From Clostridiisalibacter paucivorans DSM 22131 (GTDB taxonomy: Bacteria; Bacillota; Clostridia; Tissierellales; Clostridiisalibacteraceae): 64,000 nucleotides of DNA. A model generated the notes under the pieces. It had not been told where the DNA came from, made no database searches, and was given only the letters and a program-made list of their open reading frames with translations. Below, piece after piece: positions 7,259-16,510 of this stretch. Location: contig NZ_JHVL01000002.1 of the NCBI RefSeq assembly GCF_000620125.1, positions 62,001 to 126,000 of the forward strand, in the 5' to 3' direction. A program made the position numbers and the translations under genes. Each line of letters opens with the position of its first letter. Position 1 is the stretch's first letter.

Positions 7259-7355
7259 TGGCGGGAATATGTGGGAATCGAACCCACCCAGGACGCTCTT
7301 AACGCCCCGTAATGGTTTTGAAGACCACAGGACACACCAGCACCCATCTACTCCC
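7259..7355 (-). tRNA. selC: tRNA-Sec (anticodon TCA)
   Basis: The 97-nt gene folds as a bacterial selenocysteine tRNA. The anticodon stem and loop contain GGTCTTCAAAACC, giving anticodon TCA, which reads UGA. There is an extended variable arm, the T arm GTGGGTTCGATTCCCAC, an acceptor of about 8 bp starting GGGAG, and an encoded CCA. The long acceptor plus large variable arm separates it from a suppressor tRNA. It supplies the window's selA, selB and selD system and has its own promoter and terminator. Confidence 0.95.
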
Positions 7356-7420: not shown

Positions 7421-8074
7421 TTATAGATATTTACTACCTTCTTTTATGCTTAAGGGATGTAATTTATTGTTCTTAATAAAGTCTTTTACCCAAAATTTAT
7501 CTGTTTTTGAATATTCCCTTAAAGCCCATCCAATAGCTTTATTAATAAAAAACTCATCAGAATTAATATTGTTAAGGATAGCTGTACTAAGTAATTTTAA
7601 ATTGGTCTTTTCTTTATATCTCAATTGAACTAATATAGATGATCTTGAAAGCCAAATATCATTGCTTTCACTCCACTTTATGATAGTTTCTTCTATATAA
7701 TCAGGATACCTATCCAAAACATCAGCTGTTATTTTTGATGATAAAAAGTCTACAGTATCCCACCATGATCTATTTATTGTTAATTTCTCTATTTTATCAA
7801 TTTCAATATTTTTAATTTCTTTTTTCAAAGCTACTAGTATATCAACTGCCAGATATTGAAATTCTCTTTCTGGCAATTTCCAAAGCTTAAATATAAAATC
7901 CCAATCTATTTTTTTGATCCTTTTACATTGTTTTATATATCCCTTTTGTAAAACTAATCTTTCTGGCCTTTTTATCCCTAAAAACAGAAATTTATTTCTC
8001 ATATATTTTGCCATTTTCTTTGACTCAAATTCATTTCCATTATCATAAAATTTTTTTATAATTTCTTCACTCAT
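7421..8074 (-). CDS. DNA alkylation repair protein, AlkD-like HEAT-repeat glycosylase family
   Basis: This 217-residue, all-helical basic protein matches the DNA_alkylation family. It has LGIKRPERLVLQKGYIK near the start, WKLPEREFQYLAVDIL, the conserved NRSWWDTVDFLSSK segment, and NKAIGWALREYSK near the C-terminus. AlkD-type enzymes remove bulky or cationic alkylpurines by base excision, using HEAT-like repeats to hold the duplex; the WWDTVD region carries the catalytic Asp in characterised members. It is followed after 6 nt by, and probably co-transcribed with, the upstream SRPBCC-fold gene. Confidence 0.88.
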   Translation of the reverse strand: MSEEIIKKFYDNGNEFESKKMAKYMRNKFLFLGIKRPERLVLQKGYIKQCKRIKKIDWDFIFKLWKLPEREFQYLAVDILVALKKEIKNIEIDKIEKLTINRSWWDTVDFLSSKITADVLDRYPDYIEETIIKWSESNDIWLSRSSILVQLRYKEKTNLKLLSTAILNNINSDEFFINKAIGWALREYSKTDKFWVKDFIKNNKLHPLSIKEGSKYL

Positions 8075-8080
8075 AATTTA

Positions 8081-8506
8081 TTAATCTCCCAATTTATTTT
8101 TTAAGTCTACAATATAATTCTGTTGCATTTTCTTTAAATTTAAAAATAAATAAGACATAATCTTCATTATAGGATTTCTAATATATATCTTCTCTGTAAA
8201 AATAATTTTTGTCCCCCCAGTTTCTAAAGAAAAAAAAGTGCCTGTCCAAAATCCATAAAAAAATTTATTCTCCATTCGAAACTCATATTTTTCATACTTC
8301 TTCTTATTAGTTATAGTAAATTTAACAGCTTGTCCTTTATGATTATATTCAATAAAAGATTCCCCTTTATTAATAATCTCAACCCTTTCGATGTCACTAC
8401 GCCATTTATAATCTTCATTATTAGTAACTACATCCCAAATAGATTTTATGTCTGAATTAAAGTATGCTATAACTTCTGACACTCTCCATTTTCCCAAAAT
8501 ACACAC
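8081..8506 (-). CDS. SRPBCC/START-like hydrophobic-ligand-binding fold protein
   Basis: The protein has about 140 residues with the SRPBCC pattern. An N-terminal strand VIAYFNSDIKSIWDVVTNNEDYKWRSDIERVEII is followed by antiparallel strands and a long C-terminal helix (KIMSYLFLNLKKMQQNYIVDLKNKL). The family binds hydrophobic ligands or acts as polyketide cyclase-like proteins, and no specific function can be given. The start is uncertain: a GTG at 8506 or a TTG at 8497, the latter with GGGGG at better spacing. Its stop lies 6 nt from the AlkD-like start, so the two are probably one transcript. Confidence 0.6.
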   Translation of the reverse strand: MCILGKWRVSEVIAYFNSDIKSIWDVVTNNEDYKWRSDIERVEIINKGESFIEYNHKGQAVKFTITNKKKYEKYEFRMENKFFYGFWTGTFFSLETGGTKIIFTEKIYIRNPIMKIMSYLFLNLKKMQQNYIVDLKNKLGD

Positions 8507-8546
8507 CCCCGCAAAATATATGTATGATTTTATTATACATCAAATT

Positions 8547-8632
8547 GTTAGTAGGTATTAGCTAGTAGTTAGTAATTGATGGAAAAAATCCTATGGACTT
8601 TATCATTAAACTACTTACTGTTAACTATTAAC
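8547..8632. repeat. Palindromic dispersed repeat, copy B (MITE-like)
   Basis: This intergenic element of about 86 bp begins GTTAGTAG and ends with CTATTAAC-like sequence. It is inverted relative to copy A (5263-5359), with which it shares the TTGATG, CCTATGG and ATTAAACTA blocks. Confidence 0.65.
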
Positions 8633-8660
8633 TTATTCTATATTTATATAATATTCTAAA

Positions 8661-9161
8661 TTACCAAATATCATAATGTATTTTATCTTCTATATATCTA
8701 CTAGCAGGTTCTTTATCTTCTACATGATATCCAATTGAAACTATAGCCAATGGTATTACTGATTGGGGAATATTGAATATATTCTTTATAGATTCAACTC
8801 TATCTTCATTTGGATATACTCCTAACCAAACTGCCCCTAATCCTAACTCTTCAGCAGCTATAAGAATATTTTCTGTTATTGTGGCACAATCTTGTATCCA
8901 ATACCCATCATCTTTCTCTCTAGACTCATCTCCACATATCATAATAGCTACATCAGCCTCTTTCAACATCTGAGAATACTGATGTACTTGTGTTATTTCT
9001 ATAAGTCTATTCCTATCTCTAACCACTATAAATTCCCATGGCTGTCTATTACCAGCTGAAGATGATGCAATTGCAGACTGTAACAGTTTTTTTACTAAAT
9101 CATCAGACACCCTTTTCCCACTGTATTCTCCTATACTCCTCCCGGTTGAAATACTATCCAT
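8661..9161 (-). CDS. Nitroreductase family FMN oxidoreductase
   Basis: This is a protein of about 166 residues with the nitroreductase fold. RSIGEYSGKRVSDDLVKKLL corresponds to the usual RRSxRxF start. SSAGNRQPWEFIVV is the FMN-phosphate loop, and the second FMN motif is GLGAVWLGVYPNEDRV. The ATG at 9161 is preferred because family members begin MDxIxxRRS and a GAAGGG site lies 9 nt upstream; the longer ATG at 9197 adds an untypical 12 residues. These NAD(P)H-dependent enzymes reduce nitro groups, quinones or flavins, and the substrate cannot be predicted. It appears monocistronic. Confidence 0.9.
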   Translation of the reverse strand: MDSISTGRSIGEYSGKRVSDDLVKKLLQSAIASSSAGNRQPWEFIVVRDRNRLIEITQVHQYSQMLKEADVAIMICGDESREKDDGYWIQDCATITENILIAAEELGLGAVWLGVYPNEDRVESIKNIFNIPQSVIPLAIVSIGYHVEDKEPASRYIEDKIHYDIW

Positions 9162-9289
9162 TTTACCCATCCCTTCCCATATAAGGCAATATGTCATACC
9201 ATTTTATTATGTCAATTTAGTATAACCAAGTGAAGTAAAATTATTTACTTTGAATTCTCAATATTTATACCTTTTTAGTCATTTTCTAT

Positions 9290-10741
9290 TTACATATTAT
9301 ATGGAATTCTTATATGAAATATAGTGCCTTTCCCCATTTCACTATCTACATCTATTAGCCCTTGATGTAAAGAAATTATCTGATTCGCTATGGGAAGCCC
9401 TAGTCCTGTTCCTCCAGTATTTCTGGTTCTAGCTTTATCTACCCTATAGAATCTCTCAAATATATTCGGTAAACTTTCTTTTGGGATACCTATTCCATTA
9501 TCTTTAATCTCTATAACTACATACTTATCTTTAGAATATAAGCTAATCTTTATCTTTCCTCCTTCTGGAGTATACTTTATTGCATTATGGGCTATATTTA
9601 TTATGGCCTGTTGCAATTTTTCTGAATCCACTTTAATTTGTATTTTTTCTTTCTGAATATATTTTATGCTGATATTTTTTTCATCTGCCAAAGGCTTTAG
9701 TCTGGATATCAATTTTTCCAACATAAAATTAATATAAGTTATTTTATAATTTAATGTTAGCTTTTCTTTATCCAAATCCACTAACATCAATAGATCATCT
9801 ATTATATTGTTTAAGCGGTCTATTTCTGAATCTATATCTTCCAGAAAATCTCTATAGATTTCCACATTGGTTTCATTCTGATGTAATAAAGACTCTGATA
9901 ATAATTTAATAGAACTTAGAGGTGTCCTAAGTTCATGGGACACATTGGCTACAAAATCCTTTCTTTGAGTGTCAACTTGGTCCAATTTTATAGTCATGAC
10001 ATTAAAGGCATTGGCCAATTGACTGAATTCATCATTTGTATTTATTTCTACCCTTTGACCTAAATCTCCTTGAGCCATTTTATTTATAGCAGTAGTAAAT
10101 CTTGTAATAGGTTTTGAAAATATAGATGCAAACCAATAGCTTATTATAAGTATTATAGACATAGTCACTAAGGAAACCATATTGATTGCCTGTCTGATTT
10201 CTCTAACTCGATTATATTCATCTCTAAGGGATGTCAGTACCAATGTAGCCCCTACAACTTTATTATCAACCATTATAGGGTCTCCTATATACATCATCGG
10301 ACCAGAGTCATTAAATTCATATGTATTCACCTTTGTATCACCAGAAAGGGCAATATCTATCTCTTCATAATTCAACCTTTTATTAATCAATTTTTCATTT
10401 GAATCTCCTTTTACCACTTTTTTATCATCTACAACAATTATTCTAGAACCTATTTCTTTACTAAAATTATCAATTTGATTTTTTAATACATCTCTAAGAA
10501 AAAAACTACTTCCTTCATCAGCATTCAAAAAGAATTTTACTCTATTGGAAAGAATATTGGCATTTATTAACGTATCCTTTTCTTTTTGCTCAATATAAAG
10601 GTTAAGAAGAGTTCTAGTGATAAATATATTAACTATCACTACAAAAATAAGAATTAATAATAAATAGGTGGAAACAAGTTTCCACCTTATACTTATAAAC
10701 CTGTTTTTATTGTTCAGTCTTACCCCTAAAATAGTAACCAA
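9290..10741 (-). CDS. Membrane sensor histidine kinase (HAMP-HisKA-HATPase)
   Basis: This 483-residue kinase has two membrane helices (about 22-41 and 187-206) that bracket an extracytoplasmic sensor domain of about 145 residues. A HAMP linker (about 208-260) follows, then the H-box FVANVSHELRTPLSS with phosphorylatable His269. The ATPase domain has an N-box (NIAHNAIKYTP), G1 (DNGIGIP), F-box (FERFYRVD) and G2 (GGTGLGLPI). It belongs to the PhoR/WalK-like family and pairs with the response regulator encoded immediately upstream; the ATG overlaps the regulator's end by 35 nt, so translation is coupled. The signal is unknown. Confidence 0.92.
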   Translation of the reverse strand: MVTILGVRLNNKNRFISIRWKLVSTYLLLILIFVVIVNIFITRTLLNLYIEQKEKDTLINANILSNRVKFFLNADEGSSFFLRDVLKNQIDNFSKEIGSRIIVVDDKKVVKGDSNEKLINKRLNYEEIDIALSGDTKVNTYEFNDSGPMMYIGDPIMVDNKVVGATLVLTSLRDEYNRVREIRQAINMVSLVTMSIILIISYWFASIFSKPITRFTTAINKMAQGDLGQRVEINTNDEFSQLANAFNVMTIKLDQVDTQRKDFVANVSHELRTPLSSIKLLSESLLHQNETNVEIYRDFLEDIDSEIDRLNNIIDDLLMLVDLDKEKLTLNYKITYINFMLEKLISRLKPLADEKNISIKYIQKEKIQIKVDSEKLQQAIINIAHNAIKYTPEGGKIKISLYSKDKYVVIEIKDNGIGIPKESLPNIFERFYRVDKARTRNTGGTGLGLPIANQIISLHQGLIDVDSEMGKGTIFHIRIPYNM

Positions 10742-11405
10742 CTCCCCATTTGGTCAATATATATTCTGCTTGACTAGAATTTTGCTCTATTTTTTCTCTC
10801 AGTCTTCTTATATGTACATCTACAGTTCTCAAATCTCCAAAATATTCATATCCCCATATTATTTCTAAAAGTTCTTCTCTATTAAATACCTTGCCAGGAT
10901 TTGTAGCTAACAATAGAAAAAGGTCAAATTCCTTAGCCGTAAGATTAATCTCCCTTCCCTTTACTGTAATCTTTCTTCCCAATGTATTTATAGTAAAATC
11001 ATCTACCTTTATTATTTGTTCACCATTTCTTGTGTTTTTAGAATTTACTCTCCTAAATATGGCCTTTATTCTAGCTTTAAGCTCCAATATATTAAAAGGT
11101 TTTGTAAGATAATCATCAGCACCATACTCTAATCCCAATATTTTATTCATATCTTCTCCCTTAGCAGTAAGCATTATAATAGGGATTTCTGATTTTTCTC
11201 TTATTCTCTGACAGACTTCTAGACCATCCATTCCAGGAAGCATTAAATCTAATATTATTAAATTAAATTCTCCTTCTTTCCACTTTTTAAGAGCTTCAAT
11301 ACCGTCATAGGCAGCATCAGTTTCGTATCCATCTTGTTCCAAGCTATATTTTAATCCTTTAACTAATAAGGATTCATCATCAACTATGAGTATTCTATTA
11401 CTCAT
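10707..11405 (-). CDS. OmpR-family response regulator
   Basis: This 232-residue regulator has a receiver domain with acidic residues DD9-10, phosphoacceptor Asp53 in LIILDLMLPG, Thr in MLTAKGE and Lys in YLTKPF. A C-terminal winged helix follows, with LTAKEFDLFLLLATNPGKVFNREELLEIIWGYEY and DVHIRRLREKIE. It is the partner of the overlapping kinase gene. It lies 30 nt after selB on the same strand, so it may be read through from the selenium genes; whether that is meaningful is not known. The PhoP/WalR-like subgroup cannot be settled by eye. Confidence 0.93.
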   Translation of the reverse strand: MSNRILIVDDESLLVKGLKYSLEQDGYETDAAYDGIEALKKWKEGEFNLIILDLMLPGMDGLEVCQRIREKSEIPIIMLTAKGEDMNKILGLEYGADDYLTKPFNILELKARIKAIFRRVNSKNTRNGEQIIKVDDFTINTLGRKITVKGREINLTAKEFDLFLLLATNPGKVFNREELLEIIWGYEYFGDLRTVDVHIRRLREKIEQNSSQAEYILTKWGVGYYFRGKTEQ

Positions 11406-11435: not shown

Positions 11436-13352
11436 CTAATCTTTTTTATATAATATTCTTTTATTTCCATCACGAACAGTAATTTTTTTACTATCAAAAT
11501 GCTCTAATAAATATATAGCATATTTTCTATTAGTTTTTAAATAATCCCTAAATTGCCCCACTGTAATAAATCCATCGTTATTAATAACGTACTTTAACTC
11601 TTTTATTGCAGATTTATAAAAATCTTTGTGCATAATCATATCTTCTTTAATTGAAACTAGAGTACCTTCTAGAATCATTGCTAATAAAACCTCTTCTACA
11701 TCATCTTTATTATATCTCACCTCTGCTAAAATCTCATCTCTATTTTTAGGACAATATCCAAAGGATTTATATATTTGTTCCAAATTTTCTTTTATCTCTA
11801 AATAAATACCTTTGTATTTAACTTTAAAACCTTTCAGACAAATATATTCCCTCTTCTGCTCTATTTTGTTCTGCTTATTCATCTTCTCAAAAAACTTATC
11901 ACTGATATTTATTGTCGCATTAGATAAAAATCTACTTCTTAACTCTTCCTTAGAAATACCTTGTCTTAGTGGATATTTTTCATGATACTTCTTAATATAG
12001 TCTATTATTTTTTTTGAAACTTCCATAAAATATTCCATATGTATTACATATGTATTTTTAATATCATCAAATATAATTATAACATTTTTTTCTATTAAGA
12101 TTTTCAATATATCAATTAATTCTTCTTCTATTAATAGGGTTTGTGAAGATATATATGATAATAATGGAAATTTGTCACTATTTCTTTTTATTACAGACTC
12201 AATTATATCCTCATTATCTCCCTTTTCCTTTATGCCAAATTCTTTCAATATTTCTTTATTAAATCTTTTCCTTTTTGGTGGATTACTATCCAATATTTCT
12301 CCCCCACCTATGGTTACCATTGGAGAATAAAATCTTATTATAAACCTGTCTCCTTGACTAGCTACAGTTTTATCTTCTAGTCTAAGTTGAGCATAACAAC
12401 TTTCACCTGGCAATAACATATCTCTATCCAATAATATTACCCTACACAATATTTCTTTAGTACCTAAATACAATCTTACTCTATTACGATTTTCTATTAT
12501 TCTAGGAGAATCTTTTAATAATTCTAATTTAACATCTAACATCATAGTCGGAAGCATTGAATCCACAGGTCCCATTACATCTCCTCTATCTATATGGGAT
12601 TTTTTTATACCTGTTATATTTATGGCAACCCTTTGTCCAGGATACGTGATTTTCATATCCTCTCCATGTACCTGTATAGACCTTACTCTACAAATCTTTT
12701 CTTTAGGAAAAATTTCCATTTCGTCTCCCACATTTATCTTTCCAGATAACTGTGTCCCTGTTATTATGGTTCCAAATCCTTTTAAGGTAAATGCCCTATC
12801 AATTGGTACCCTAGCAATCCCTTTAGCACTAATATCCTTTAAGGAATTTGCCATCTTATCTATTTCTTCTATTATTTTTTTTATTCCTATTTTACTAATA
12901 GAAGATACCTCTACTATTGGACTCCCTTCCAAAAAAGTTCCCTTTATATATTCCTCTGTATCTTCTCTAACCAATTTAATCCACTCTTTATCCACCATAT
13001 CTACTTTTGTCAATGCTATAATACCATTTTTCACCTTCAATATATTCAATATATCTAAATGCTCTTTAGTTTGAGGCATAACTCCTTCATCTGCAGCTAT
13101 GACTAATACGACCATGTCCATACCTACTACTCCAGCAAGCATATTTTTAATAAATTTTTCATGACCTGGAACATCTATTATTCCTGCTCTTTTTCCACTG
13201 GGCAAATCAAAATATGTAAATCCCAATTCGATTGATATACCTCTATTCTTTTCTTCCTTCAATCTATCAGTTTCTCTCCCAGTTAATGCCTTTATTAATG
13301 TACTCTTACCATGGTCTATATGGCCAGCTGTTCCTATTATAACATTTTTCAT
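11436..13352 (-). CDS. selB: Selenocysteine-specific elongation factor SelB
   Basis: SelB carries Sec-tRNA to UGA codons marked by a SECIS hairpin. The 638-residue protein has the GTPase motifs G1 (GHIDHGKST, residues 10-18), G3 (DVPGHEKF) and G4 written TKVD instead of NKxD, as is common in SelB. EF-Tu-like beta-barrel domains follow, including the [15 protein letters not shown] signature. The C-terminal half (about 380-638) is the series of winged helices that bind the SECIS RNA, ending [27 protein letters not shown]. It starts 1 nt from the selA stop codon, so the two are translationally linked. Confidence 0.97.
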
Positions 13353-13353
13353 C

Positions 13354-14790
13354 CTAAAACCCCTTTATATGATGATTACTCAATACCCTTTCAAGTTCAT
13401 ATACTATTATATCAAATTCATCTTCTTTTACAGTTCGTAAATCTATATAAATTTTATCTTTAAATACTCTAACTACCACTGGAATACTTTCTTTCCTTAA
13501 TCTCCTCTCTATTTCAGATGCTGTTAAATCATTTGAAACTAATTCTATAAGTTTTGTTGGTATTTTTTCCAAAGGCAATGCTCCACCACCAACTTGTGAA
13601 AAACCATCTACTATTTTCACATTAATCTTTCCTGTAAGTTTATCAATTATCTTATTAGATAATATATTTGCCTTTAAAGAGACCTCTTCTATAGACATGG
13701 TCAACATCTTTAAAGTAGGTATTTTCTTTATCGCTTTCTCTTCATCTAAGTATAGTCTCAATATTAATTCCAACGTGGCTATTGTGAACTTATCTACCCT
13801 TAAAGCTCTAGTTAGAGGATTTTTTTTCATTTTATCTATATATTTTTTTTTGCCTACTATTATACCAGCCTGAGGCCCTCCTAATAACTTGTCTCCACTA
13901 AACGTAACTATATCTATCCCTGATTCTATAGACTCTTTTACAGTGGGCTCATGCTCTATGCCATATTTCTCCAAATCTACCAATACTCCACTGCCTATAT
14001 CCTCTATTACAGGTATTTCAAATTTCTCTCCTATTTTAACTAACTCTTCAATACTTACTGATTTAGTGAAACCTAAAATTCTATAATTGCTTGTGTGGAC
14101 CTTAAGTAATGCACCTGTTTCTTCTCCTATACCATTTGTATAATCTTTCAAATGGGTTTTGTTTGTGGTTCCCACATCTATTAATTTAGCTCCACTCTGT
14201 TCCATAACATCAGGAACTCTAAATGAACCTCCTATTTCAACTAATTCACCTCTAGAGACGATAACTTCCTTGTCCTTTGCCATAGTATTAAGTACAAGCA
14301 TAACTGCAGCAGCATTATTATTTACTACTAATGCTGCCTCAGCACCTGTAATTCTAGTTATAATACCTTCAATATGATCATATCTTAAACCTCTACTACC
14401 TTCTAATAAATTGTATTCTAAGTTAGAATAATTTGTAACCACATCTACTACATATTCCATTATTTCTTTATCTATAAGAGATCTCCCTAAATTAGTATGA
14501 ATTATAGTCCCCGTAGCATTTATAACCCTTTTAAATTTAATCTCCATTTTATTTTGGGCTTTATTAGATATTATATCTTCTATATTGTTAACCATGTTTT
14601 TTAATTGTTGTAATTCTATATTATTAGATAAAATATCTTTTCTTAAACCTTCTATTGTTTCTCTAATTGTGTTCACTACCACATTTCTAGGTATATCTTT
14701 CAATAGATCTATTATTTTATTGGAATTCAATAGATTATCTACCTTTGGAAGTATTTTAAACATGTCTTGTCTATTAGACACAAAAATCAT
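13354..14790 (-). CDS. selA: L-seryl-tRNA(Sec) selenium transferase SelA
   Basis: SelA converts seryl-tRNA(Sec) to selenocysteinyl-tRNA(Sec) using selenophosphate and PLP. The 478-residue protein has an N-terminal tRNA-binding helical region, the [17 protein letters not shown] motif (88-103), and PLP lysine Lys301 in [12 protein letters not shown]. The C-terminal small domain has [10 protein letters not shown]. Length and motifs are standard. The gene lies between selD and selB in the order selD-selA-selB, and its substrates come from the neighbouring selD and from the tRNA-Sec 6 kb away. Confidence 0.97.
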
Positions 14791-14815: not shown

Positions 14816-15856
14816 TTATACAACTAAAATGGGATAATCTCCTTTTTCTAAAACCCTTCCTATAGTCCAATATTTTATTTCATGCTTTTTAAAATTTTGT
14901 TTCAGATCTTCTAAATTTGATTCATTTACTGATAAGAGTAATCCTCCAGATGTCTGGGGATCAAACATAATATCTCTATATGTCTCTGATATATCATCTG
15001 AAAACATAACATTATCTCCAATATATTTCTTATTAGAATAGGCACCCCCAGGGACAAGACCCATATTGGCCAATGAAATAGCCTCTTCTATTATAGGTAT
15101 TTCTTTGTGGTCAAATTCTAATGTTACAGAACTTCCCTGGGCCATTTCAAGGCCATGACCCAAAAGACCAAAACCTGTTACATCTGTACAGCTATTAACT
15201 TCTACTCCCTTTGTAGCTTCCATAGCATATTTATTTAACAAAATCATTGTCTCTATTGCATTTTTATAAGTATCATTACTTACCATATCTGCCTTTATAC
15301 CTGTATTTATTATACCTAATCCTAAAGGTTTAGTAAGTATTAAATAATCCCCTTTCTTAGCACTGCTATTTTTAAGTATATCATTGGGATTAGCAAAACC
15401 TGTAACAGTAAGTCCATATTTAGGTTCATCATCTTCTACTGTATGTCCCCCAACAATAATTGCCCCTGCTTCTGTCACCTTGTCATGACCACCCTTTAGT
15501 ATCTTGGTCATAACATCAGTTGATAGACAGTTTGGAAAACATATAATATTCATTGCCAATTTGGGCTGACCTCCCATTGCATATATATCACTTAATGCAT
15601 TTGCTGCTGCTATCTGGCCAAATATATAAGGGTCATCTACTACTGGAGTAAAAAAATCTATAGTCTGTATAATAGCAGTATCATCATTTAATTTATATAC
15701 TGCTCCATCATCTGAAGTACTTACACCTACCATCAATCTATCATCTTTTATTTCTGGTAATTGACACAGTACCTGTGCCAAGGTCTCAGGACCTATTTTA
15801 GCTGCTCATCCAGAACTCTTGGTTAACTGAGTCAATCTTATTTGCTCCACTGTCAA
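14816..15856 (-). CDS. selD: Selenide, water dikinase SelD, a selenoprotein with Sec17
   Basis: SelD makes selenophosphate from selenide and ATP. The uninterrupted frame begins at 15781, but that start lacks the catalytic N-terminus. Reading through one in-frame TGA (15806-15808) gives LTKSSG-U-AAKIGPETLAQV, the classical active-site motif with selenocysteine where E. coli SelD has Cys17, followed by the conserved Lys. The TTG at 15856 has AAGGAG 8 nt upstream, so UGA is codon 17 of 346 residues. A GTG at 15850 is the alternative start. Later motifs include DFFTPVVDDPY, GGHTVEDDEPKYGL and FDPQTSGGLL. A hairpin 11 nt after UGA fits a bacterial SECIS. It starts beside the stop of the ComEA-like gene. 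Confidence 0.95.
15780..15808 (-). promoter_or_regulatory. Putative SECIS element in selD
   Basis: Eleven nucleotides after the UGA codon, the minus strand has AGGTC-CTGA-GACCT (15781-15794), a 5-bp stem with a 4-nt loop. Flanking GC pairs could extend it. Position and size match bacterial SECIS hairpins, which lie within the coding sequence just 3' of UGA. Confidence 0.75.
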
Positions 15857-15868
15857 GTTTATCACTCC

Positions 15869-16510
15869 TTAATTTACTGTAATCATATCCTTAATACCTT
15901 CGTATATTTTCTGACCTATTCCATTAACATTTTGAATATCTTCAATATTTTTAAATCCATTTTCATTCCTATATTCAACTATTCTTTTAGCTTTTACTTC
16001 TCCTATGCCTGGCAATTCCATAAGTTCAGTAATTGATGCAATATTTATATTTATTTTTCTAACATTGGTCTCAATAGAATCATTCCATCCATCTGTAGTT
16101 AATTCCGTATCCTGTGATATTTTATTTCTATCATCTATACTGGGTATATTAATTTTTTCTTCATCATTAATCTTTTTTGCCCTGTTTATTCTTTTTATAT
16201 CTGCCTTTTCTGTCAATCCTCCCGCTGCATTTATTGCGTCTATTAATCTAGAATCTATGTCTAATACAATAACTCCTGGATTATGGACCTCTCCACTTAT
16301 ATCAACCATTATTTTGCTTTCTTCAGTAGTATTATTTTCTATTTCATTATTATATTCTAATTCTGGTTTTTCAAATGTATCTTTTCCATAGGAAGAATCA
16401 TTTGAAATTTTTATCTTATCATCTATTACTATATTATATCCTATCAAACCCACTATAACTATTATAAGGAAAAATATAACTATATGTTCTCTTTTATTAA
16501 ACATATCCAA
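15869..16510 (-). CDS. comEA: ComEA-like DNA-binding protein (SLBB plus helix-hairpin-helix)
   Basis: This 213-residue protein has one N-terminal membrane helix (IVIFFLIIVIVGLIGYNIVI, about 9-28). An extracytoplasmic linker and an SLBB-type domain follow (IMVDISGEVHNPGVIVLD to RLIDAINAAGG, about 67-105). The C-terminal tandem helix-hairpin-helix pair is ELMELPGIGEVKAKRIVEYR and VNGIGQKIYEGI. ComEA proteins bind incoming DNA at the membrane during transformation. No comEB or comEC is adjacent, so a competence role is not established. The gene ends right at the selD ribosome site and may be the first gene of the selenium transcript. Confidence 0.88.
   Translation of the reverse strand: MDMFNKREHIVIFFLIIVIVGLIGYNIVIDDKIKISNDSSYGKDTFEKPELEYNNEIENNTTEESKIMVDISGEVHNPGVIVLDIDSRLIDAINAAGGLTEKADIKRINRAKKINDEEKINIPSIDDRNKISQDTELTTDGWNDSIETNVRKININIASITELMELPGIGEVKAKRIVEYRNENGFKNIEDIQNVNGIGQKIYEGIKDMITVN

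Follow-up and report, generated by a model that had tools for sequence, protein, structure and literature searches.

A predicted selenocysteine-containing SelD in Clostridiisalibacter paucivorans with two abutting hairpins after its UGA codon

The stretch of DNA analyzed here (the window) comprises 64,000 nucleotides (nt) of Clostridiisalibacter paucivorans DSM 22131 (assembly GCF_000620125.1, contig NZ_JHVL01000002.1, positions 62,001 to 126,000) and carries selD, the gene for selenide, water dikinase, together with genes of the selenocysteine (Sec) pathway (Table 1). The selD frame is interrupted solely by an in-frame TGA at codon 17 and is otherwise intact, with the surrounding peptide reading ...LTKSSG-U-AAKIGP... 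(U, Sec). With TGA read as Sec, the SelD profile TIGR00476 was matched at 401.9 bits against a curated cut-off of 125, and alignment to the solved SelD structures 2yye and 3u0o placed residue 17 on the catalytic Cys and a Lys at position 20, the residue combination by which SelD proteins are recognized. An earlier note, made from the sequence alone, had put this TGA (SSG-U-AAK) at the catalytic Cys17, with which the alignment agrees; it had also named the TTG start and the AAGGAG ahead of it, both of which were located. Its warning that a standard gene call would shorten SelD and drop the active site is borne out by the mechanical open reading frame (ORF), 321 aa at 14816–15781, which begins past the TGA. 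Two abutting hairpins, H1 (near) and H2 (far), lie a short way 3' of the UGA.

Table 1. Features of the selD locus (window coordinates)
Feature	Position	Strand	Details
selD	14816..15856	(-)	346 aa with Sec17; TTG start 15856, TAA end 14816; TIGR00476 profile
Ribosome-binding site AAGGAG	15865..15870	(-)	8 nt ahead of TTG
In-frame TGA (putative Sec17 codon)	15806..15808	(-)	codon 17
Near hairpin H1	15781..15794	(-)	5 bp, loop CUGA, stem starts 11 nt after UGA
Far hairpin H2	15762..15780	(-)	8 bp, loop GUA at 15770-15772, 33 nt after UGA
selA	13354..14790	(-)	TIGR00474, 623.8 bits
selB	11436..13352	(-)	C-terminal winged-helix domains SelB-wing_2, SelB-wing_3
tRNA-Sec (selC)	7259..7355	(-)	anticodon TCA
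comEA-like gene	15869..16510	(-)	directly upstream of selD

TGA occupies the same selD codon in all 111 aligned loci; these were fetched by similarity to the window SelD, and independent lists from the order and the phylum carry more weight. Among the strong SelD matches listed from 120 genomes of the order, all but ten carry one in-frame TGA, and these ten belong to a single family; nearly all listed top SelD matches from 299 genomes of the phylum likewise carry one TGA. A Sec-containing SelD is thus the common form in these bacteria. The protein sequence 5' of the UGA (RLTQLTKSSG and close variants) is kept in all relatives, and Cys stands at the Sec position in SelD of loci L111–L120, giving the Sec/Cys pair that marks a bacterial selenoprotein gene. 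No second selD, Cys-containing or otherwise, was found elsewhere in the 99%-complete genome, which leaves the window gene as the only copy; the earlier note had named a separate full-length Cys-SelD, combined with no Sec insertion here, as what would overturn its reading.

The genome contains SelA, SelB and tRNA-Sec, the set expected to accompany a selenoprotein gene, and all three lie in the window, as previously claimed. Of 80 named loci, 53 share the gene order comEA-selD-selA-selB.

When the region after the UGA was folded as a single sequence, z was about -1.6 against dinucleotide shuffles, which is too weak alone, and a comparison across genes was therefore needed. A codon-permutation folding test was used that preserves the amino-acid sequence and codon usage of each gene. 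At the first offset after the UGA, mean z was -2.03 in 88 Sec genes compared with +0.21 in 8 Cys genes; in the Sec genes it was -2.09 at the second offset and -1.63 at nine codons, and fell to about zero from twelve codons. The RNA structure is therefore restricted to the codons just past the UGA and is absent from Cys-SelD genes. Among the latter, L111 (G071:C3) is closer to the Sec forms (about 52% identical) and has lost both H1 and H2; it is probably a Sec-to-Cys conversion.

H2 is supported by covariation: in an alignment of rows chosen for having it, 99.2% of cells are paired, 50 cells carry compensatory double changes (0 of 500 shuffles as high), such double changes occur in 5 of 8 pairs, and pairing in shifted controls does not exceed 54%. 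In all 88 Sec genes, unselected, pairing was 87.1%, and the highest value among 200 codon permutations was 68.5%. H2 is absent from Cys-SelD genes, and a search of the genome with the H2 model R1 gave no strong second copy (best other match, E 0.014). H1 also shows selection within the window's clade, where every pair is formed in 10 of 15 rows compared with a maximum of 2 in 300 synonymous permutations; the Thr codon at +8 is ACC in 15/15 of these rows, although these genes use ACC for 6% of their Thr residues. The Tissierella clade has, in place of H1, a hairpin set in a different register, seen in 19 of 21 rows and in at most 12 under permutation.

The intact frame, its conservation, the pathway genes and a selected RNA structure can all be read from the sequence, and from them we infer, with a probability of about 95%, that the selD product is a selenocysteine-containing selenide, water dikinase with Sec17. 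If the UGA were instead a real stop, a shorter SelD would begin downstream at TTG 15781 or later; a 321-aa ORF does exist there, and the Pfam domains start at residue 49 and would match regardless. Such a protein would nevertheless lack the catalytic residue and Lys20, and would leave without account both the protein-level conservation upstream of the UGA and the RNA structure, which is under selection in Sec genes and missing in Cys genes, making a true stop very improbable. A sequencing error, which the earlier note had raised against itself, or a pseudogene would fit an interrupted frame, but the TGA is identically placed in some 100 or more independent genomes, which excludes an error, and nothing else interrupts the frame; we regard this explanation as already refuted by conservation, with a negligible residual chance.

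Under the Sec17 reading, translation of selD would start at TTG 15856, and SelB carrying Sec-tRNA-Sec, bound to the RNA structure just past UGA 15806–15808, would insert Sec at position 17, the presumed nucleophile of SelD's flexible N-terminal loop. SelD, by its predicted activity, would make selenophosphate for SelA and would therefore depend on the pathway it feeds; needing Sec itself, it would depend on its own product. This dependence, already proposed in the earlier note, holds with no Cys-SelD copy elsewhere in the genome, and the loop has been discussed before (PMC1794560). In the hairpin pair, the second (GU loop, 33 nt) would most likely be the selenocysteine insertion sequence (SECIS) bound by SelB, and the first a conserved auxiliary.

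The choice between the hairpins can be weighed against the bacterial SECIS consensus as quoted in PMC13188914: a loop of 3–9 nt with G in the first two positions, a stem of 4–16 bp, a spacing of 16–37 nt and a minimum free energy of -7.5 kcal/mol or lower. H2 conforms in loop length, G-U loop (GUA), stem (8–9 bp), spacing (33 nt) and energy (-9.6 to -10.4 kcal/mol), whereas H1 lacks the G required at the start of the loop and reaches only -4.9 to -5.4 kcal/mol. The SECIS-like hairpin 11 nt downstream in the earlier note is present as a hairpin but departs from the SECIS model on these two points, and H2, the stronger of the pair, had been missed. We consider H2 probably the SelB-binding SECIS, and H1 likelier a conserved auxiliary to it. 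Two observations weigh against this assignment: Clostridium lacks H2 and retains a near hairpin with a GGA loop, which shows that H2 is not needed everywhere; and in grdB of the C. paucivorans genome a GGU-loop hairpin has its loop just 18 nt from the UGA, which makes a 33-nt distance no general rule for this SelB. The reverse arrangement, with H1 bound by SelB and H2 accessory, is compatible with Sec17 and would draw on H1's grdB-like spacing, the selection seen on it among the window's close relatives and the fact that Clostridium and Thermincola have kept near hairpins alone. It appears unlikely, since H1 sits in one register in the window's clade and in another in the Tissierella clade while the position of H2 is fixed, and RNAalifold retains H2 alone.

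SelD genes use two positions for the SECIS-like hairpin, a far one (33 nt, with a GU loop) and a near one (about 17 nt, with a GG-type loop). When these types were mapped on a SelD tree that excluded the first 20 codons counted from Sec, the far type proved widespread, and near-only GG-type loops occur in Clostridium, Thermincola and others; parsimony requires at least four near/far switches on this quick tree with many weak forks. Among 30 loci sampled across the phylum from the top matches to the family, 18 were of the far type. The Sec-SelD genes L063, L065 and L070 fit neither type, having a stable UGU-loop hairpin 20 nt past the UGA. A broader proposal, which to us stands about evenly balanced, is a two-hairpin selD SECIS in which the far GU-loop hairpin, fixed at 33 nt, would bind SelB, a lineage-specific near hairpin would shorten the path or position it, and the SelB site would have moved repeatedly between far and near; the far hairpin may also have shaped the protein (AQVL, then C, R, S or G).

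The Sec17-SelD finding is correct but already known in kind: the earlier note gave Sec-SelD as occurring in several bacteria, and it prevails in this lineage and, like the SPS2 selenoproteins, has long been documented (PMC1794560, PMC4561486, PMC13188914). With these the present case shares Sec at the catalytic N-terminal position, the Sec pathway genes and post-UGA RNA structure, and the protein is no different; the text of those papers gave no mention of the tandem hairpin layout, and the consensus model has no counterpart to the extra conserved H1 between the UGA and H2. What the present analysis adds is the SECIS correction and the two-site pattern, for which no prior description was found in the literature searched; for a tandem selD SECIS the same holds, an RNAz figure in the PMC4561486 supplement excepted. 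Standard gene calls would lose the SelD active site here and in most relatives, and the two-hairpin layout offers a clean natural test of which SECIS feature SelB reads and what UGA distance is allowed.

The selenoproteome of the genome was surveyed family by family. The idea that SelD is its sole selenoprotein was rejected: outside the window, grdA (CFV-U-TAAG), prdB (AG-U-GTC) and grdB (TST-U-GTC) have in-frame TGA at conserved motifs, a sign that the Sec pathway supplies further genes as well. The selenouridine synthase family has a match in the genome, also outside the window. SelD would therefore serve several uses. Formate dehydrogenase FdhA (TIGR01591) and YqeB (TIGR03309) gave no match in the genome, and inspection by eye of TGA-spanning frames within the window yielded no other convincing Sec gene.

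The selDABC cluster of Eubacterium acidaminophilum, reportedly described by Gursinsky in 2000 (cited in PMC12013277), has the same selD, selA, selB order with tRNA-Sec downstream, whereas here selC lies 4 kb past selB. The intervening segment (7421–11405) holds a two-component pair (9290–11405), a nitroreductase, an ORF without family and a DNA_alkylation-family protein.

Cysteine desulfurase–SelD fusions are nearly always of the Cys type, with one Sec case on record (PMC4561486). In the relative G208, a 744-aa frame (L168:852-3086, (+)) fuses a cysteine-desulfurase-like domain (Aminotran_5) to Sec-SelD, and the same genome carries a second Sec-SelD besides this fusion.
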